This document shows positions 4,840-20,459 of a stretch of DNA of 20,459 nucleotides, piece by piece. How positions within the stretch are numbered: the stretch's first letter is position 1; each line of letters opens with the position of its first letter. Origin of the DNA: a virus. Position numbers and translations under genes: made by a program. The DNA lies in IMG/VR virus record IMGVR_UViG_3300047462_000173, positions 1-20,459 of that record. The stretch is one strand, 5' to 3'. The notes under the pieces were generated by a model. It was not told the origin of the DNA. It saw only the letters and a list, made by a program, of their open reading frames with translations, and ran no database searches.

Positions 4840-4998
4840 TTACTGCTTGATTGGCTTGGTGGGATCGAGGGGGATGATAACTCGTCGCGCCTCACCACAA
4901 CTTGTGCAAATTAAGATTACCCAAGCTTCTGTGTTACTTTGATTGGTCTTTGGTTCTGAAACGAAAAACCGATGGTCGCCACTACAACTATTGGCCAT
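4840..4998 (-). CDS. 52-aa zinc-ribbon-like small protein
   Basis: A very short gene that begins inside the end of the histidine phosphatase gene (11-nt overlap) and ends 31 nt before the next start. The product contains DHRFFVS near residues 8-14 and a knuckle CTSCGEARRV (31-40). The pattern H, strand, C-x2-C-G-E resembles small phage zinc-binding proteins. G-rich SD-like sequence (GAGGGGAAGCAAGGAT) precedes the ATG. Composition is protein-like: charged, with few repeats and a Pro/Lys-rich end. The zinc site would need more ligands, such as C5 or H9. Function is unknown; DNA, RNA or protein binding is possible. Confidence 0.65.
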   Translation of the reverse strand: MANSCSGDHRFFVSEPKTNQSNTEAWVILICTSCGEARRVIIPLDPTKPIKQ

Positions 4999-5611
4999 AT
5001 CCTTGCTTCCCCTCTTTGCCCTTTAAAACTGGATGCACCTTGAAGCCATTCTCATCCTTCACTACCTGCAAAATCCCACCCGGCTTCACGTTTCCTGCAT
5101 TGTGGTCTCCGTGCAGCATGTTTCCAACTTCCTTGCAGATACTGGAGTGCGCGAAGACGATGGAGGGTTTGCCGGTGGAGATACCAGATTGTAGCGCTTT
5201 AAGTATGCTTGGATGTACTCGTTGACGGAACTGGTTGAGGCTTTCGCCGTTTGGGATTTGTTCATCAGGGTGGCGCTGGAAATAGGAGATGTCATCTTGG
5301 TGTTCGGACTTGGGCTGCCCAGCCAGGTAGCCGACATTCCAGGCTCGAAGGTTGGGGTCCGACTCGAATTGCATTCCCTTGGGTTGGAGGACGGCCCGAG
5401 CCGTGGTCTCGGCTCGTTGCTTGTCTGAGCTATACGCATCCCCGAGGTCGATGTCCTTGAAGAAGTCCGCAATCTCGTGGGCGTCTTTGAGACCGTTCTC
5501 GTCTAAAGGTGGATCAAGCGGACCCCTAAAAGCTTTCTGGGCGTTTAGGAGCGTCTCACCATGCCTCACAATGTATGCGATTATCTTTGGTTCAGAGGAT
5601 GAGGGACCCAT
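4988..5611 (-). CDS. Histidine phosphatase (phosphoglycerate mutase-like) family protein
   Basis: A 207-aa member of the histidine phosphatase clan branch 1. The phospho-acceptor motif IVRHGET is at residues 14-20 (catalytic H17, with R16). The phosphate-pocket region SSDKQRAETTA is at 61-71 (R66), the PNGES acid motif at 120-124 (E123), and the second catalytic His in VFAHSSI at 152-158 (H155). All the usual active-site residues are present, so the enzyme should be active. Length is normal for the family. The substrate cannot be told from sequence: small phosphometabolites, nucleotides, or a phosphoprotein. The gene lies in the late operon between a membrane-protein gene (1-nt gap) and a zinc-ribbon gene (11-nt overlap). 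A phosphatase is unusual among packaging and virion genes. Confidence 0.9.
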   Translation of the reverse strand: MGPSSSEPKIIAYIVRHGETLLNAQKAFRGPLDPPLDENGLKDAHEIADFFKDIDLGDAYSSDKQRAETTARAVLQPKGMQFESDPNLRAWNVGYLAGQPKSEHQDDISYFQRHPDEQIPNGESLNQFRQRVHPSILKALQSGISTGKPSIVFAHSSICKEVGNMLHGDHNAGNVKPGGILQVVKDENGFKVHPVLKGKEGKQGYGQ

Positions 5612-12009: not shown

Positions 12010-12203
12010 CAGTCCCCAAACATTGGTGGGATCATCCACTTCTATACAAACGGTATCTTATTGACAGGCAAAAACTTAAAGAGCAATATCGGCTTGAGTT
12101 TGAGGAGATGAGCGATGAAGAAAAAGGGGTTGATAGCAGCGACCATTGCAGCGGCGATGGGGGGATGGGCGATTTTCTCGATACCTTCCTTGGACGTCAT
12201 TGA
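12006..12203 (+). CDS. Small charged protein, 65 aa
   Basis: The product starts MTVPKHWWDHPLLYKRY and continues with a charged helix (DRQKLKEQYRLEFEEMSDEE) and an acidic, Gly-rich tail. The start at 12006 is favoured by the ATGA link to the micro-ORF; an ATG at 11994 would add four residues. The 3' part overlaps the signal-peptide gene at 12115 by 89 nt in another frame, a long overlap that tempers confidence. No family is recognised. Confidence 0.5.
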   Translation: MTVPKHWWDHPLLYKRYLIDRQKLKEQYRLEFEEMSDEEKGVDSSDHCSGDGGMGDFLDTFLGRH

Positions 12204-12861
12204 CACGCGCACGCACGCGCCCACAGCACGCACGATTCATTTATATAAAACCGGCGGGGCTGCGGCATTTGGACACCCATTGGTCGCTGGCGGCATCCAT
12301 AACCTTGAGGAGTTGAGACTCCATGCCGGGTTGTATGATGGTTTGAACCCCGAGAATGCGATTTTCACCGTGTTGACGCATGGGACGTTTGCGTATGTTT
12401 CGTATGTGAAAAATGGTGTGTTGTATTGGACACGCCAGCCACGATATATCAAGGCGGGTGAGCCGATCATTATCGCTGGGAATGGGATGGTAATCCTTCA
12501 GAAGTGTGGGAATATCATTCGGTTTGATACGCCAGCGCCGGTTGAGACGCTGTTTGACCAGCCGGATGACCTATATCCGCCGGATACGGTTCCGGGTGAT
12601 ATCATTGAGATGCCGCTTCCAAAGGTGCCCATGACAACCATGTTGGTCCCGAGCGCGCCAATTATCCCGAGCGCGCCAATTACGCCACCTCAAATGGGTC
12701 AATCATCGCCAATAACAATTCCATCTTTCATTGGAGGATTTGCGCCGTTTGGAGCGCCATCTGTTGTAAGTGTGGATGAGCCATCAACACTGGCGATGTC
12801 GGTGATAGGGTTGTTTATTCTGTGTGTTGTTGCGCGGTTTCGGACATGGTTCAAACACTGA
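12115..12861 (+). CDS. Secreted protein with PEP-CTERM-like sorting signal, 248 aa
   Basis: An N-terminal signal sequence (MKKKGLIAATIAAAMGGWAI) is followed by a globular domain of about residues 35-140 that ends with VILQKCGNIIRF. A Pro-rich linker (about 139-200, with the repeat PSAPI) follows. The C-terminal 30 residues have the three-part form of a PEP-CTERM signal: VDEPSTLA (220-227), a hydrophobic span (MSVIGLFILCVVA, 228-240) and a basic end (RFRTWFKH). In bacteria such tails are processed by exosortase for display on, or export through, the outer envelope. GAGGAG lies 7 nt before the ATG. The gene stands immediately upstream of the first amidoligase. A host-derived function, such as envelope modification or superinfection control, is inferred only. 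Confidence 0.8.
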   Translation: MKKKGLIAATIAAAMGGWAIFSIPSLDVIDTRTHAPTARTIHLYKTGGAAAFGHPLVAGGIHNLEELRLHAGLYDGLNPENAIFTVLTHGTFAYVSYVKNGVLYWTRQPRYIKAGEPIIIAGNGMVILQKCGNIIRFDTPAPVETLFDQPDDLYPPDTVPGDIIEMPLPKVPMTTMLVPSAPIIPSAPITPPQMGQSSPITIPSFIGGFAPFGAPSVVSVDEPSTLAMSVIGLFILCVVARFRTWFKH

Positions 12862-12933: not shown

Positions 12934-14031
12934 ATGACAGCAACATTGCAAGCCAAAGCGCCGGTTGGTTCGATGTTTATAAGCCCAATCGCGAATCCTT
13001 TTGTCGGCTCCGACCCTGAAGTGTTTGTCATGAATGGAACCAAGGTGCTTCCGGCGTGGGAGTTTTTGCCGGATAAGGGGAATCCGCTAAAGACGTGGTA
13101 CGCACACGATGCGGACACACACCTTACACCCTATTTCACCCACCAATATTGGGACGGGTTTCAGGCTGAGTTGGCGCTGGGGTGGGCACCAACTTGCTTG
13201 ATGTTTTTGATGTGCTATGTGCAACAGGGATTGAGGACCATTCGGGATGAAGCAGTCAAGGTCGCCCCGAACGCGAAGTTATCTCTCAAGTCGGTGGTGA
13301 GAGTGCCACTTTCAACCTTGAGAACTGCCATGGACCCACATGTGTCACTCGGATGTGCGCCTTCACTCAACGCATATGGATTGAAGGGGATTGAGGCAGG
13401 GAATCCACGCCAACTGCGATATCGGTTTGCGGGTGGACACATGCACTTTGGTTGTACGGAACTCATCAAACACAAAAACATTACCCATGTTGTGAAGATG
13501 CTTGATGCAATTGTGGGGCTGTGGAGTGTTGGGGCAGCCAAGAGCTTTGACCATCCCATTCGACGGCGATATTATGGGATGGCGGGGGAGTTTAGAAGGC
13601 CGGAGCATGGATTGGAGTATCGAGTGTTGAGCAACTTCTGGCTCTCACATCCGGTTGTTTTTCATGCCACATGGGAAATTGCACGGCGGGCGGTTATGTT
13701 GGCTTTGAGTGAATATGCGAACTTATGGGTTGCGCCCGAGGAGATGGTTGTGGAGGCGATTCAGAATGGGGATGCCAAGATTGCACGCAAACTCTTGGAG
13801 TTGAACAAGCCGATTTTCACGTGGCTGATGGCGTCGCGGGGATGGACAATGGGGATGATTGACAAACTTTTCAACGTAGGGATTGATGGACTGGAAAGCA
13901 TCATCAAAGACCCGGAAGACATTGAGAATAATTGGCTGTTGAATCCAGGGCAGCCAACGATGAGTTGTAGACAAGAAGCACATTCTCTTTATACGTGGCA
14001 AGGGTTTGCAGCAACAACAACGAAGGTTTGA
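12934..14031 (+). CDS. COOH-NH2 amidoligase (phage type 2), copy A
   Basis: A 365-aa glutamine-synthetase-fold amidoligase of the phage COOH-NH2 ligase type 2 family, predicted to use ATP to join a carboxylate to an amine. Key motifs: GSDPE (25-29), the first acidic metal/ATP site; DGFQAEL (74-80); GGHMHFG (167-173), paired His ligands; RRRYYGMAGEFR (210-221); and GLEYR (226-230), the usual late Glu/Arg pair. A helical C-terminal domain follows. The ATG is preceded by AGGAGG. It heads the peptide-ligation module and has a second, divergent paralogue at 16013-17422. Substrates are unknown. Confidence 0.9.
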   Translation: MTATLQAKAPVGSMFISPIANPFVGSDPEVFVMNGTKVLPAWEFLPDKGNPLKTWYAHDADTHLTPYFTHQYWDGFQAELALGWAPTCLMFLMCYVQQGLRTIRDEAVKVAPNAKLSLKSVVRVPLSTLRTAMDPHVSLGCAPSLNAYGLKGIEAGNPRQLRYRFAGGHMHFGCTELIKHKNITHVVKMLDAIVGLWSVGAAKSFDHPIRRRYYGMAGEFRRPEHGLEYRVLSNFWLSHPVVFHATWEIARRAVMLALSEYANLWVAPEEMVVEAIQNGDAKIARKLLELNKPIFTWLMASRGWTMGMIDKLFNVGIDGLESIIKDPEDIENNWLLNPGQPTMSCRQEAHSLYTWQGFAATTTKV

Positions 14032-14086
14032 TGTTTGATGTGAAGGATAAAGGTTGAGGTTGGATGAGAAGGTTAGAGGTTTGAGG

Positions 14087-14359
14087 ATGAGAATCACATG
14101 TCCAATCTGCATGGGGAGGTTTTGGATTGACCCTAAGGGCGGGAAGTGTCCCCTTTGCGCGGATAACAAGTTTGTGGACGATGAGATGGTTTGTGAGTGT
14201 GGACGCCCGGTGACGAGGGTTGTGAATAAAACCCTCATCTGCAATTTCCTATGCTGTGAGCAACGGGCGCTCAAGAAGGATGCCTCAAAAACCATTGAGG
14301 TTAAGGCTGTTGAGGTCAATGACAGCCATCAAAACTGGTATACGGGGGATGTGTATTGA
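14087..14359 (+). CDS. Double zinc-ribbon small protein, 90 aa
   Basis: Paired knuckles CPIC (5-8) and CPLC (21-24) form one ribbon. CECG (37-40) with CNFLCC (52-57) suggest a second. The C-terminal 30 residues are charged and probably flexible. The ATG at 14087 is preferred because AGAGG lies 7 nt upstream; the frame stays open from 14054. It follows the first amidoligase by 55 nt and precedes the long non-coding gap. Zinc ribbons of this type bind nucleic acid or partner proteins. A role as a substrate or scaffold of the ligase module is speculative. Confidence 0.75.
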   Translation: MRITCPICMGRFWIDPKGGKCPLCADNKFVDDEMVCECGRPVTRVVNKTLICNFLCCEQRALKKDASKTIEVKAVEVNDSHQNWYTGDVY

Positions 14360-14369
14360 TGTGTATTGA
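14350..14369 (+). repeat. 10-bp tandem duplication TGTGTATTGA
   Basis: Two exact copies in tandem cover the stop codon of the zinc-ribbon gene and the first bases after it. It is probably a recent slippage event. Confidence 0.6.
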
Positions 14370-14844
14370 GGCACACAGAATATGATTGACCAAGTTAAGG
14401 TTATCAAGGGTTAATCAAAGATTCCGCTCGCCGTCTGGGATGAACGATTGGTTCATCGCCAATCTAACGCGCCTCGACGGTGACTAAATCGCAGTGGCTC
14501 TGTATGGGCCAAGGAGGGAGACCTTCGCGTTTGGTTGCTCTGGGACGATAGCTGTGACTGATCTATAACAACTCAAACCGCTACTTTTCGGGGAGCGTTG
14601 ACTGGATGTAAAAACCCTGCCCTCGGGTGGGTTTCTGGTTAAGTTGCGTTGATCCGAACGGATACGTTTGAGTTTTGGATTGGTTGAGGCTATCGAAGCA
14701 TCGAGACTGGACACAACCTCAGGAATGGCGAGCGGATACCCTATCATGAACAATAGAAACAATCAAGAAAAGAGCGGGTAATGAGAAAAGGTTGTGGAGG
14801 GGGGAATTAACACGGCCATGATATCGACAACAACCCGGATTGCG

Positions 14845-14876
14845 TTTGTGAATGTAGCGATTTGTGAATGTAGCGA
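14845..14876 (+). repeat. 16-bp perfect tandem duplication
   Basis: TTTGTGAATGTAGCGA occurs twice head-to-tail with no mismatch in the non-coding gap. Confidence 0.75.
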
Positions 14877-14978
14877 TTATACCTTGTAGCATCACGATAT
14901 TCGCGTTCTAACATAGAGCGCGATATAGACGGTTAAGAGCCTCGCAAGGGCCGATAACTGTCACCGCTATCCTGAAGC

Positions 14979-14992
14979 CTCCGTTCGCGGAG
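14979..14992 (+). ncRNA. UUCG tetraloop hairpin within possible structured RNA
   Basis: CTCCG-TTCG-CGGAG is a 5-bp stem closed by the very stable UUCG tetraloop in its canonical C-G closing context. It lies among further short GC-rich pairings (about 14935-15045). The tetraloop is clear; that it belongs to a functional RNA is inference. Confidence 0.4.
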
Positions 14993-15052
14993 CCAGTAAG
15001 GGGCCACCCCATACCTTAAGGACGCTTAGGGGCGGGATACAAACATGGGAGC

Positions 15053-15104
15053 CACCCACCCGAGAACCAGGTTGTTGAGACTGGGTTGCGGGTGGTTTAA
15101 TTTT
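15053..15104 (+). terminator. Terminator-like stem with T-rich tail upstream of 15151
   Basis: CCACCC (15053-15058) pairs with GGGTGG (15090-15095) and is directly followed by TTTAATTTT. An inner CCAG/CTGG stem shortens the loop. This fits an intrinsic terminator or attenuator on the plus strand, lying about 45 nt before the next gene. Confidence 0.5.
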
Positions 15105-15150
15105 GTGCGCGGCCTAAGAATGTGTTGGAGAGAGGAGGTGGAGGATAATT

Positions 15151-15492
15151 ATGAATGCAGCGGCAAAGAAGTGGGTTAAGGCGTTGAGGAGTGGGAAGTA
15201 CGAGCAGGGAAAGTATACACTAAAACAGGGGGACCGATATAGTTGCCTTGGGGTGGCTTGTGAGTTGGCGGTGAAGGCTGGGATCATCAAAAAGTTCTCA
15301 GGGTCGCGAGCGTTTCTTCCTAGTCAAGTTCGGGATTGGTTGGGACTTAGCTCGTGCCGCGGACAGTTTCAAGATGAGGGCAGGTATCATAAGCTTACCT
15401 TGGCTGATTTGAATAACAAGGGCCGCTCATTTAGATACCTTGCGTGGCTAATTGAACAGCAGCCAAAGGGGTTGTTCAAGTCTAAGGGCTAA
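15151..15492 (+). CDS. Conserved small phage protein (CLGVACE-type), 113 aa
   Basis: The N-terminus reads KKWVKALRSGKYEQGKYTL, then YSCLGVACELAVKAGI, then LPSQVRDWLGL and a C-terminal LTLADLNNKG with RYLAWLIEQ. This order (ALRSGKY-x-Q, CLGV, WLGL, DLN-x-G) matches a widespread family of small phage and plasmid proteins of unknown function. Strong ribosome-binding sequence (AGAGGAGG, then GGAGG) precedes the ATG. It is the first gene after the long non-coding gap and is followed 1 nt later by the next gene. No enzymatic role is known to me. Confidence 0.75.
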   Translation: MNAAAKKWVKALRSGKYEQGKYTLKQGDRYSCLGVACELAVKAGIIKKFSGSRAFLPSQVRDWLGLSSCRGQFQDEGRYHKLTLADLNNKGRSFRYLAWLIEQQPKGLFKSKG

Positions 15493-15493
15493 C

Positions 15494-16000
15494 ATGCCAA
15501 TACCAGACTATCTAATCGCAAAATCGTTCATGCCGGGGGGCAGAAGGTTGGCCAAGCGAGGGAAGGTGGAGTATTGGCAGCATCCACAGCTTCCGGCACA
15601 CTACGCCCCTAGGCAAGTTGAGGACATCTCTGGCGAAGGGGCTGTCTACGACGCCACCTTGCAATTCCGCCATTATGAATTTCGGTTTTGGGCGCTGGAG
15701 AACGTGGGGGCTAACATCACCACGGCGGTTTGCCGGTGTTGTGAGATGCCGGAGAACACCTTAGCTGAACGAATCAAGCATCAAAAGAAGTATGGATGCA
15801 CGACGACGCTGGTGGATGCGTATAAGCTGCTACTCAAAGGCAGCCCGATGCAATGTGTGATGTGTGATAAAGATACCACAAGAAGCAAGTTTGGCATCCC
15901 CATCTGCTATAATGATGAATGCCTGAACAATTGGTTCTTCACACCACAGCCGATCAATCTTTTGAATGCGTTGATATTGAGTGCGAAGGGGGTTGTATGA
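15494..16000 (+). CDS. Zinc-binding hypothetical protein, 168 aa
   Basis: Two Cys clusters are seen: CRCC (about residues 93-96) with a C about 20 residues later, and CVMC, then IPICYNDECLNNW (about 132-160). The latter is a C4 zinc ribbon typical of proteins that bind nucleic acid or recruit partners. The N-terminal half includes a basic stretch (GGRRLAKRGKVEYW). The ATG at 15494 is preferred over an upstream one at 15452 because it removes the overlap with the previous gene. It lies 12 nt upstream of the second amidoligase, in the same operon. Specific function unknown. Confidence 0.7.
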   Translation: MPIPDYLIAKSFMPGGRRLAKRGKVEYWQHPQLPAHYAPRQVEDISGEGAVYDATLQFRHYEFRFWALENVGANITTAVCRCCEMPENTLAERIKHQKKYGCTTTLVDAYKLLLKGSPMQCVMCDKDTTRSKFGIPICYNDECLNNWFFTPQPINLLNALILSAKGVV

Positions 16001-16012
16001 AGGAGCCGAAAC

Positions 16013-17422
16013 GTGGCTGATTATCGAGACGAAAAGCGCCGCCTTTATCACAGGTTGATTGTAAGGGGCGGGCGCAAAACCGAGTTTCAGGCTATAGCCC
16101 AGGCGGATTCCGTGGCGGCTCCCTCGGAGTTGCTGGCGAAGTGGGAGCAGAAGTTTTTCCAGTTGCCGATGGATTCGTATCCAACTGAGCCACGCCTTAT
16201 CAATCGCTTCTGTGTTGGGGCGGACCCGGAGTTTATTTTGGAGATGCCACAGATAGACGCAGCGGGGAACAGGGTTCGTGGCAGATATAGACATGCCCAA
16301 ACATGTGGCCTTGATACTCTCACGGCGTTTGGTTCGGATATGAGCGGGCGGCAGGCGGAGTTGAGGGCGTATCCATCCCGGTTCATATTAGACGTTATCG
16401 CCAGCCTTGTTGATACGGTAAGGTGGATGAATGAAGCCTACGGATTGGACAAGATTGATTGGATAGCTCCAGCAAAATATGGGGATGACGGGGTTGGTGG
16501 GCACATCCATATTGGCCGTAAGAGGCCGGATACGCCGGTTTGTATACAGAGCCTTGATGCGGTCACACAACTTCTGTTAGCCGCGAATGTGTTGGACTCA
16601 AAGGGGCAGGCTGCCCGACGCGAGGCAACTTATTATGGCAGATTTGGCGATTGGCGTCCACAGGTCCATGGATATGAATATCGTACTATGCCAAGTTGGA
16701 TGACTAGTCCGTGGGCGGCTTATTTCACTTTGGTTGTAAGTAAGCTGTGTATCCTGAATGACGCCACAGAGTTCTTGAGCAATGACAGGCCCCAAGAAAC
16801 ACTGATAAACCTGTTGAGGGCATATAAATTCAGGGATGACGATGCCCGCATCTGCCTGTTGGCGCTTCAGAAATTGGGGTTTCCGAAGTATGAGAACAGC
16901 GATTTTAAGAAGAGATGGGGGGTTGCGCCATCGACTTGCACGTTGAATACCATCAGAACATTCTTTCCGCCTGTGATTAAGCCGACGGAGGAGACGAAGC
17001 AACAATTGTTTGATTATCTTGTGCACGGGAAGGCGCTTCCGGCCAAGCTGCCGAATTGCAACTGGAAACCATTTGGGTTGCCGGAGGATGTTTATAAGGC
17101 GACAGCCCAACCGCATGTCTATGGAGTCAGTGATGTGGCACAGGGGTTGTTGAGTCGGGGATGTATGGTTCACTTTTCACGCGGGGATCGGAGACGTTTC
17201 ACAGTAACAAGCCAAACCCCGATGGATGCAAAGGCGTTGACGGCGGCAATTCGGAAGCATCCCGTTTTAGATTGGGTGGTGCATGTGGCGAAGTGTGACA
17301 AAAGTAGTCCGCCACAAATGCACATCAGCATCCCAAGCGACATCTACGACCAACACGCCCACGCCACAAACAAGGATCAGCGGGCGGCGATCAGGAGTGT
17401 GCTGACGGAGAGCGCCGGTTGA
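16013..17422 (+). CDS. COOH-NH2 amidoligase (phage type 2), copy B
   Basis: A 469-aa paralogue of the ligase at 12934-14031, with an N-terminal extension of about 65 residues. Motifs: GADPEF (69-74), SDMSGRQAEL (108-117), GGHIHIG (162-168), YYGRFGDWR (207-215) and YEYR (221-224), then a helical region. A separate C-terminal segment of about 100 residues ends in HPVLDWVVHVAKCD and PQMHISIPSD. The catalytic set looks complete. The start is GTG at 16013 with AAGGAG 7 nt upstream. Two different amidoligases in one operon suggest two successive condensations or two substrates (inference). Confidence 0.9.
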   Translation: MADYRDEKRRLYHRLIVRGGRKTEFQAIAQADSVAAPSELLAKWEQKFFQLPMDSYPTEPRLINRFCVGADPEFILEMPQIDAAGNRVRGRYRHAQTCGLDTLTAFGSDMSGRQAELRAYPSRFILDVIASLVDTVRWMNEAYGLDKIDWIAPAKYGDDGVGGHIHIGRKRPDTPVCIQSLDAVTQLLLAANVLDSKGQAARREATYYGRFGDWRPQVHGYEYRTMPSWMTSPWAAYFTLVVSKLCILNDATEFLSNDRPQETLINLLRAYKFRDDDARICLLALQKLGFPKYENSDFKKRWGVAPSTCTLNTIRTFFPPVIKPTEETKQQLFDYLVHGKALPAKLPNCNWKPFGLPEDVYKATAQPHVYGVSDVAQGLLSRGCMVHFSRGDRRRFTVTSQTPMDAKALTAAIRKHPVLDWVVHVAKCDKSSPPQMHISIPSDIYDQHAHATNKDQRAAIRSVLTESAG

Positions 17423-17538
17423 ACCACCGAAGCCGGTTAGAAAAAAGCCGCTGCCAAGCCGAGGAAGCATCGTTTCGATGGTAAGGGGCGAGGTTCAAAG
17501 AGACGATAACGATTCTAGATACGAGGAAGCATAAAAAG

Positions 17539-17547
17539 AAAGGAGGG
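17539..17547 (+). promoter_or_regulatory. Strong ribosome-binding site before a non-canonical AUC start
   Basis: AAAGGAGGG ends 7 nt before an ATC codon at 17555-17557, which is followed by TGC-GGT. No ATG, GTG or TTG occurs in frame between the upstream stop (17516-17518) and the ATG at 17582. The site defines the start of the amidotransferase gene. Confidence 0.75.
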
Positions 17548-17554
17548 TAGCTAT

Positions 17555-18601
17555 ATCTGCGGTCAAGCTGGAATAATTCGGATGGGCAGTAAGCCAATCC
17601 CAAAGGACGCTTTGAAACTTCTTTTGGTTGGAAATGAGCACCGCGGTGCTGATTCCACGGGACTGGCAATCTCTCAAGCGGACGGAACCATCAACATCCT
17701 CAAAGCTGACACCATCGCTTGGAGGTTTGTAACTCAAAAGATGTACACAGACTTCGTAGACGAGCATCTCCATGAGGATAGCTGGGCGGTGTTACTCCAC
17801 ACCCGCGCTGCTACCCAGGGCAGTCCACGAAACAATAAAAACAACCACCCCATGTTCAATGGGGCGGGGGCGATTGTTCACAATGGGATCATCCACAATG
17901 ATGACATGTTGTTCAAGTCCACGGGGATGGAGAGGGGGGCGGAGACAGACAGTGATATCATACGAGCGTTTGTGGACAAATATGGAATTACTGAAAAGTG
18001 CGTTTCAGAGCTTAACAAACTATCAGGATCGGCTGCTGGCTCTGCGATCCACCCATCCTATCCGAAGAAATTGCTGCTGTTTCGTTCGGGAAGCCCGATG
18101 GTTTTAGGGAGCAATGATGACTTTCTGGTGTGGAGCAGCGAGAAAGCTACCCTCCATCGCGCCATGAGACCCTGGATCGAGCGGTTTGGTGTGTGGTTTC
18201 AGGAACAGAGGCCGGAGATTGCGTTTGCGCCGATGGCCGATGACACTGCTTGGATCTTGGGGGAGCGAGGGTTGGAATATCACAACAGATTCAAAACCCT
18301 CCACGGCTCCTATAATGAACCCTATCGGCGGACGTATGAGGGGTATAAGGACCGCCAAACCAAGTGGGATCGGGAAGAACAACGGACCAAAAACATCGCC
18401 CGGTTCACGTTTGAGGAGAATGAGAAGGCCAAGAAGCACCACGGCAAACACAAGAAGTTTGGCAATGCGTATTGCCTGGATTGTAAGAAAGATTGGGAGA
18501 TTCCTGAAGGGGCGGTACCGAGCCACTTCACTTGCAACAAGGACAAGGGTGGTTGCGGGAAGAGTTTGACGTATAAGCCGATGATTTATGTTGTTAATTA
18601 A
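17555..18601 (+). CDS. Class II glutamine amidotransferase with C-terminal zinc ribbon (AUC start)
   Basis: Ntn-type (GATase class II) enzyme of 348 aa. Read from ATC at 17555 the protein begins M-C-G-Q-A-G-I-I-R, which places the catalytic Cys directly after the initiator, as the family requires. Starting at the ATG at 17582 would remove that Cys. Other motifs: NEHRGADSTGLA (27-38), HTRAATQG (82-89), NHP (97-99), VHNGIIHN (108-115) and ETDSDI (130-135). A charged linker (about 255-295) leads to a zinc ribbon, CLDC then CNKDKGGCGK. It hydrolyses glutamine to glutamate and ammonia, or handles glutamyl-type substrates, probably together with the neighbouring ligases. Confidence 0.88.
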   Translation: MCGQAGIIRMGSKPIPKDALKLLLVGNEHRGADSTGLAISQADGTINILKADTIAWRFVTQKMYTDFVDEHLHEDSWAVLLHTRAATQGSPRNNKNNHPMFNGAGAIVHNGIIHNDDMLFKSTGMERGAETDSDIIRAFVDKYGITEKCVSELNKLSGSAAGSAIHPSYPKKLLLFRSGSPMVLGSNDDFLVWSSEKATLHRAMRPWIERFGVWFQEQRPEIAFAPMADDTAWILGERGLEYHNRFKTLHGSYNEPYRRTYEGYKDRQTKWDREEQRTKNIARFTFEENEKAKKHHGKHKKFGNAYCLDCKKDWEIPEGAVPSHFTCNKDKGGCGKSLTYKPMIYVVN

Positions 18602-18640
18602 GGGCGCTATCACCATTATGCAGGTAAAGGACGCCATAAA

Positions 18641-19426
18641 ATGAACCTCGCACTACTAGTCGCAAAGATGAGCGCCCCAACCGGCAAGTTGTTGGCAGAT
18701 TTGCTGGTGGAAAAGGGCGCACGGTTGGTCATGGCGAATGAGGCTGAGGGCATCATCAGCTATGGGGTCCCATACAAGGGAAACCGCCCGTGCCTGAATG
18801 CCCAAGCAGGCAACCTCAACAACCTCCAACAAATCAAGCTTTTGGCCGAGAGGGGCGTGAGGGTGCCCCCGTTCGTCATCGACATCGAGCAAGCCGATTG
18901 GAGCAGGATAGAGTTTCCGATGTTTGCGAGGGAGGAGAAACATCATGGAGGGAAGGACATTCGGCCAGTGATGCAGATTGAAGAGATACAATGGCGCAAG
19001 GATAGTGGTTCCAAGTTCTTCACGCAATACATTCCGGTTGAGACTGAATATCGGGCGTGGGTGTACAGGCGGCGGATTCAGGCTGTGTATACCAAGGAGA
19101 TGAAGTATCCTGACAAGTTCAAGCGCATCGGGCGCAATTGGCAAAACGGCTTCGCGTTCTCGTTCATCGAGAAAACGGTAAGGCCACCTGAAGTGGGTCC
19201 CTTAGCGGCGAAGGCCGTGTTTGCGCTGGGGTTGGACTTCGGGGCGGTGGATATCATCAAGGGGAAGGACAACAGATTCTATGTGTTGGAGGTTAATAGC
19301 GCCCCTGGGGTGAGTGAGGGAATCCGGCAAGGGATATCCAGCCTCTCCAACAGCATCATCAAGTGGGCGAAGGGTGGATACAAAAAGCAGAACAAGACGA
19401 ACATTGTGTTTGGAGAGGAGGAATAA
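18641..19426 (+). CDS. RimK-like ATP-grasp ligase, 261 aa
   Basis: ATP-grasp enzyme expected to form acyl-phosphate intermediates and join an amino group to a carboxylate. Seen: FPMFAREEKHHGGKDI (92-107), matching the lysine-plus-glycine-loop strand; ETEYRAWVYRRRI (134-146), resembling the E-x-R-x-x-V strand of RimK-type ligases; and GLDFGAVDII (197-206) followed by FYVLEVNSAPG (213-223), with the metal-binding E217 and N219. Length is a little short of typical RimK. The ATG lies 39 nt after the amidotransferase gene. Substrate unknown; glutamate or another amino acid onto a peptide is the family norm. Confidence 0.88.
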   Translation: MNLALLVAKMSAPTGKLLADLLVEKGARLVMANEAEGIISYGVPYKGNRPCLNAQAGNLNNLQQIKLLAERGVRVPPFVIDIEQADWSRIEFPMFAREEKHHGGKDIRPVMQIEEIQWRKDSGSKFFTQYIPVETEYRAWVYRRRIQAVYTKEMKYPDKFKRIGRNWQNGFAFSFIEKTVRPPEVGPLAAKAVFALGLDFGAVDIIKGKDNRFYVLEVNSAPGVSEGIRQGISSLSNSIIKWAKGGYKKQNKTNIVFGEEE

Positions 19427-20279: not shown

Positions 20280-20459
20280 CAACAGCGCCGCACAAATGTT
20301 TCGCATGTGCCCGTGGGCGTATTATGAGGCGTATTTGCGGAATGGCCGGGGCGTCCAACCAATCCCCGCGAAGGAGGGCGAGGAGTATTCCACCCTAGAG
20401 TTTGGGGAGAGGGTGCACGAAAAACTAGAGGTCTATTATAAAACGCTAAAAGCTATCCA
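20260..20459 (+). CDS. PD-(D/E)XK nuclease family protein (partial, runs off right edge)
   Basis: The first 66 residues show the N-terminal signature of RecB/Cas4-like PDDEXK_1 nucleases: NSAAQMFRMCPWAYYEAYLR (4-23 in the mature frame), then STLEFGERVHEKLEVYYKTL. The C-P-W-x-Y-Y motif and the G-x-x-x-H-x-x-L helix are typical. Catalytic D/E-x-K residues lie beyond the window. The start is uncertain: ATG at 20260 has AAAGG abutting it, while TTG at 20269 has the same site at a better distance. Such phage nucleases act in recombination or replication. Confidence 0.8.
   Translation, partial: MIPLLIDNSAAQMFRMCPWAYYEAYLRNGRGVQPIPAKEGEEYSTLEFGERVHEKLEVYYKTLKAI

Follow-up and report, generated by a model that had tools for sequence, protein, structure and literature searches.

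The virus record IMGVR_UViG_3300047462_000173, a stretch of 20,459 bases referred to here as the window, derives from a virus of bacteria and carries a divergent variant of the phage amidoligase cassette, in which the usual ligase of family PF12224 is replaced by a deep paralogue of the PF14395 ligase. Four enzymes of amide-bond chemistry are encoded on the + strand, in the order ligase A, ligase B, class II glutamine amidotransferase (GATase) and RimK-like ATP-grasp ligase, and the window ends 1 kb beyond the last of these. The set is a distinct version of one known from many phages. Its distinctive parts are the second PF14395 lineage in place of PF12224, an extra ligase in several relatives, a conserved Cys/His-rich protein (zn2), an embedded structured RNA and an apparent non-AUG start of the GATase gene, the latter two being the features that look new.

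An initial annotation of the window had named the four enzymes, in the same order on one strand, and Pfam and phrog profile matches bear out both the arrangement and the assignment to families with this chemistry. It had also regarded the presence of two ligases as the mark of a richer version, but the known cassettes likewise carry two, one of family PF14395 and one of family PF12224. An alignment of PF14395 ligases, searched against viral contigs, yielded a clade that numbers 18 non-redundant contigs with the window among them, and the neighbourhood comparison proposed in that annotation thereby revealed a common gene order: ligase A, zn2, ligase B and GATase follow one another in 18/18, an arrangement that is therefore not due to chance, and the ATP-grasp gene lies inside the fetched flank in 16. 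At least two copies of PF14395 occur in each of the 18 clade records, versus at most one in each reference phage. Conversely, PF12224 was found in none of the 18 clade contigs, whose records may be fragments, whereas the equivalent search detected it in 10 of 10 reference phages. Several clade contigs encode a third ligase (ligase C), and nine of the 18 encode a gamma-glutamyl cyclotransferase (GGACT), which the window fragment lacks; tblastn found no remnant of it in positions 14360-15150.

Ligase A scored 43.3 bits against PF14395 (39.5 in a second scan; cut-off 25) and matched phrog_3815 with an E value of 1e-32. Comparison of profiles (hhalign) aligned it with the PF14395 ligase of known cassettes at 1.5e-40, which shows it to be the orthologue of that enzyme. 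Ligase B scored 76.8 bits against the same family (78.3 in the second scan; cut-off 25), and in the profile comparison it was a distant relative of the cassette PF14395 ligase (7e-9), could not be aligned to PF12224, and was itself the nearest relative of ligase C (4e-43). In a tree, for which the tool warned of long branches, ligase A and the cassette PF14395 ligases split from ligases B and C with support of 100/100; thus, ligase B is a paralogue of deep origin rather than the product of a recent duplication of ligase A. The DPE motif, both His residues of GHxH, and EYR are invariant in ligases A and B and in the reference ligases. No relative of ligase B was found in the phage collection by tblastn or in bacterial genomes by a pattern scan. 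A structural model of ligase B derived from 18 sequences (predicted local distance difference test score, pLDDT, 89.6) gave Z scores of 13.3 to Dop and YbdK, 12-12.6 to PafA and GCL, and about 10 to GS, with ~180-250 residues aligned. A GS/GCS-like carboxylate-amine ligase fold is therefore confidently predicted, while the tie among the top matches leaves the substrate class undecided.

The GATase scored 50 bits against GATase_6 (cut-off 27), and a profile built from its relatives matched the amidotransferase domains of GlmS among solved structures (1e-23). Its Cys nucleophile, His/Arg, HNG and Asp sites are conserved, together with three to four Cys residues near the C-terminus. As in class II amidotransferases, whose N-terminal Cys nucleophile is exposed once Met has been removed, the Cys lies right after the presumed start codon, and the Asn-Gly oxyanion site is present. 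The ATP-grasp ligase matched phrog_2599 (5e-23), contains the E-x-N site and other conserved residues, and its family profile matched the RimK structure 5zct (3.6e-13). Its score against Pfam RimK was 20.1 bits, just under the cut-off of 21, and because of this shortfall, despite the match of the family profile to RimK structures, the enzyme is termed RimK-like only. Of the profile searches suggested beforehand, those with PF14395 and GATase_6 thus passed their cut-offs and that with Pfam RimK narrowly did not; loss of catalytic residues, which would have spoken against the assignments, was not seen, these residues being intact in the enzymes.

The listed open reading frame of the GATase begins too late. 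The codon for the catalytic Cys occupies positions 17558-17560 and is preceded by ATC at 17555-17557, which stands eight to nine bases behind a GGAGG element; no ATG, GTG or TTG start is available. The fetched loci yielded 67 non-redundant GATases, in which the Cys follows ATG in 51 cases, GTG in two, TTG in one, ATC in seven, ATT in two, ACG in one and an unrelated codon in three. Seven of the 10 with ATC, ATT or ACG lack any in-frame ATG, GTG or TTG on the way from the preceding stop codon to the Cys. By comparison, when 91 other genes of the clade's cassettes were checked, each had a canonical start available. GATases that seem to start at AUC, AUU or ACG include those of the window (17541-17560), L003, L008, L012, L016, L018, L020, L024, L029, L030 and L060. 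The GATase of phage O4, one of the seven with no canonical start, also has ATC before the Cys, and its annotated gene begins downstream of that residue; TC6, a relative of O4, has TTG at the same position. Moreover, the nine bases GGTAGCTAT preceding the start are nearly invariant within a subclade, and the same string precedes the very distant GATase of L060. As the 22 viral contigs that contain the 17-nucleotide start pattern are mostly unrelated, the count itself carries no weight; only the location of the pattern at GATase starts does. Thus, the window GATase seems to initiate at AUC.

A propeptide ahead of the Cys, suggested by a conserved GSYI, was considered and rejected. In L060 a stop codon lies a few codons upstream of the Cys with no start between, which rules out a propeptide there; L029 has a different sequence at this place; and 64 of the 67 genes have ATG, GTG, TTG, ATC, ATT or ACG before the Cys. 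In L020, ligase B terminates on the TAG of GGTAGCTAT, so coupling of ligase B to the GATase is possible in that contig. The AUC start would probably keep GATase synthesis low or link it to initiation conditions (IF3). If confirmed, recurrent AUC and AUU starts suggest translational control, and also show that gene callers can cut the catalytic Cys off phage GATases, as in O4.

The structured RNA lies in a region (14360-15150) in which no credible gene was found. Within it, 63 nucleotides are 87% identical to the contig L003, a level above that of any gene, those nearby having 64-72%. Covariance-model matches placed homologues at the same position of the cassette in eight contigs, namely the window, L003 (5517-5810), L016, L018, L020, L021, L028 and L029. 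A three-way junction of 24 pairs is paired in 95% of cells, with changes on both sides in 15 pairs; none of 500 shuffles was as good, and controls slid along the alignment were less than 50% paired. Because the alignment of eight sequences had been adjusted to the structure, it is biased in the structure's favour; in a five-sequence alignment made by sequence alone, 13 of the 24 pairs are already doubly changed. The + strand is favoured, as G-U pairs appear from the pair table to far outnumber unpaired cells. A closing helix, unrelated in sequence from member to member, encloses about 280-345 nucleotides and has a mean score of 33.4, versus 16.6 (standard deviation 2.6) for mismatched flank pairs, one of which reached 25; L029 itself scores 24, and the value for L018 is an underestimate, the script having anchored on a wrong motif. 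A GGACAC-like motif precedes the 3' strand of this helix in all eight. Among 4227 Rfam families, no match was obtained in the window at E<=1 or in L003 at E<=5, and L029 gave two snoRNA matches far below the cut-offs. A scan of 88 sources placed the RNA nowhere outside the clade, and a strict pattern found it in no bacterial genome. Judged by Rfam, it represents an undescribed class of phage RNA; it is probably either a phage RNA in its own right or a regulator acting in cis on the operon.

Table 1. Features of the amidoligase cassette in the window and the evidence for each
Feature	Position	Strand	Description	Evidence or remarks
Ligase A	12934..14031	+	PF14395 COOH-NH2 ligase, orthologue of the PF14395 ligase of known cassettes	Pfam, phrog_3815, hhalign, motifs
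zn1	14087..14359	+	Small protein with several Cys pairs, zinc-ribbon-like	Kept in 9 clade contigs; no Pfam match over cut-off
Structured RNA	14423..14736	+	Predicted structured non-coding RNA	Closing helix of 14423-14434 with 14725-14736; AACGCG at 14466; three-way junction downstream; GGACACAA at 14709
113-aa protein	15151..15492	+	phrog_18067 protein, outside the conserved core	phrog match
zn2	15494..16000	+	Cys/His-rich, conserved marker of the variant, upstream of ligase B	18/18 clade contigs
Ligase B	16013..17422	+	PF14395 paralogue in the place of PF12224, with predicted GS/GCS/PafA-Dop fold and C-terminal extension	Pfam, model
GATase initiation region	17541..17557	+	Shine-Dalgarno GGAGG, conserved spacer, putative AUC start
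GATase	17555..18601	+	Class II glutamine amidotransferase, GlmS-type GAT domain without SIS domain, C-terminal four-Cys zinc-ribbon-like motif
ATP-grasp ligase	18641..19426	+	RimK-like ATP-grasp ligase	phrog_2599, family profile

The zinc-ribbon proteins that the initial annotation had placed between the ligases are there as two Cys-rich proteins with conserved CxxC and C/H sites, zn1 and zn2, neither of which has a Pfam match over the cut-off. The Cys and His pattern of zn2 is invariant across the clade, and comparison of its model (pLDDT 82) with the PDB gave no clear match. Two identities were tried and rejected: zn1 is not a LysW-like carrier, as it has no conserved acidic C-terminus, and hhalign found no relation between zn2 and the protein that separates the ligases in known cassettes, so the two are not orthologues.

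Phages of several kinds, including CW02, tf, 7-11, O4, phiM6, StenR_269, a crAss-like phage and others, carry, close to replication genes, one or more of these ligases with a GATase, an ATP-grasp ligase and, frequently, a gamma-glutamyl cyclotransferase. A seven-gene cassette of RIO1-like phages was described as modifying peptidoglycan and is thought to block superinfection, with relatives in phiEco32, 7-11, PA11, tf, LUZ24, PaP3 and CW02 (PMC5498523). Modification of the surface or of peptidoglycan by such cassettes is also predicted in PMC10580990 and PMC11318856, both of which cite Iyer 2009. The chemistry of the families is well supported. The GATase would free ammonia from glutamine, and the two GS/GCS-fold ligases would use ATP to activate carboxylates as acyl phosphates and then form amide bonds, probably of the gamma-glutamyl type; one of them perhaps uses the released ammonia and caps a carboxylate as an amide. 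The RimK-like enzyme would add a further amino acid, and the cyclotransferase, in the relatives that have it, would trim or unmask the product. The target is less certain. We tentatively favour, at somewhat less than even confidence, stepwise amide modification of a peptide-bearing precursor of the host envelope. The change would be made in the cytoplasm at an early stage of infection and would hinder the adsorption or entry of competing phages. Early, cytoplasmic action fits, because primase or helicase genes adjoin the cassette in most reference phages.

Several points weigh against this reading. No result here demonstrates a target. The literature searched holds no experiment on the product of any such cassette, in agreement with the earlier statement that the product is not established, and the idea of surface modification traces back to predictions. 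The cyclotransferase is missing from the window itself, the RNA is linked to the enzymes by position only, and the top folds for ligase B mix, at nearly equal Z, enzymes acting on proteins (PafA, Dop) with those acting on free amino acids (YbdK, GCL). The last point bears on a possible alternative that ranks close behind, although we consider it unlikely, in which a host or virion protein receives amino acids or an amide, on its tail or a side chain, from the RimK-like and PafA-like ligases. The ATP-grasp ligase is closest to RimK, ligase B matches PafA and Dop as well as it does other folds, the zinc-ribbon-like proteins could hold the target, and phage R2K ATP-grasps were predicted to modify host proteins (Burroughs 2015, PMC4431377); the similarity to RimK is remote, however, the fold matches do not settle the substrate, and a conserved target protein was not found.

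Synthesis of a small peptide or amide metabolite (a signal, toxin or nutrient) in place of a modified polymer is improbable. Successive ligases, an amidotransferase and a cyclotransferase recall peptide-metabolite pathways such as that of the butirosin side chain, but no transporter, precursor peptide or carrier protein with a conserved acidic C-terminus was recognised, and the C-terminus of zn1 is not LysW-like. We regard as more doubtful still an undescribed RNA-assisted amide-ligation system, in which the RNA and the AUC-started GATase would both be integral to the cassette, the RNA serving the amidoligases specifically as scaffold, acceptor or regulator and non-AUG initiation setting GATase output. 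Least probable is hypermodification of phage DNA bases with amino acids: although reference cassettes lie near replication genes, several with MazG-like pyrophosphatases, inspection of cassettes, short of a systematic search, revealed no base-modification gene. Envelope-precursor modification thus remains the reading that we favour.

Other observations concern the surroundings of the cassette and one reference phage. The protein at 12115-12861 of the window has an N-terminus resembling a signal peptide and terminates in a PEP-CTERM-like sequence (DEPSTLAMSVIGLFILCVVARFRTWFKH), with an NCBIfam PEP-CTERM match of only E 0.028, and was not found in the relatives. A histidine-phosphatase gene (CobC/GpmB-like) lies on the - strand at 4988-5611 amid structural genes. 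Positions 20287-20366 are 80% identical to L003 12893-12972, part of a PD-(D/E)XK nuclease gene, so the window probably ends inside such a gene. In CW02 (L126, 2-7801), eight small proteins interspersed in the cassette share the C-terminal tail P-x-L/I-L-E-E/D-N followed by V, I, L or A, and no listed protein outside that stretch ends so; they are possibly a paralogous family, with the tail serving as a substrate or signal.

Known systems resemble the cassette to different degrees. The model of ligase B aligns with members of the GS/GCS/PafA-Dop superfamily over 211-250 residues (Z 12-13), but its sequence has no match to solved structures, and its N-terminal helices and C-terminal domain lie outside the alignment. 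The ATP-grasp ligase shares a profile match (3.6e-13) with RimK, the ribosomal protein S6-L-glutamate ligase; this similarity is remote, the single Pfam score being under the cut-off, and whereas RimK acts on S6, no S6-like target is shown here. Among genes with non-canonical starts, infC (AUU/AUC) and sigR (GTC) are repressed by IF3 (PMC5472188). The GATase likewise has a non-canonical start behind a strong Shine-Dalgarno element, but it is a phage gene and its AUC initiation is deduced from sequence. The closest counterpart is the known phage amidoligase cassette (RIO-1/PSA-HP1, LUZ24, PaP3, tf, phiEco32, 7-11, PA11 and CW02), which is widespread over phage lineages. As in the window, two ligases, one of them PF14395, share a strand with a class II GATase and a RimK-like ATP-grasp ligase; many of the known cassettes also have a gamma-glutamyl cyclotransferase (GGCT). 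The variant differs in that a PF14395 paralogue, sometimes two, stands in the place of PF12224, that its zn2 has no homology to the protein encoded between the two ligases of the known cassettes, that an RNA is embedded in it, and that the GATase of a subclade appears to start at AUC or AUU. A variant with only PF14395-type ligases narrows the required role of the second ligase, and zn2 and the RNA provide new handles on this cassette.

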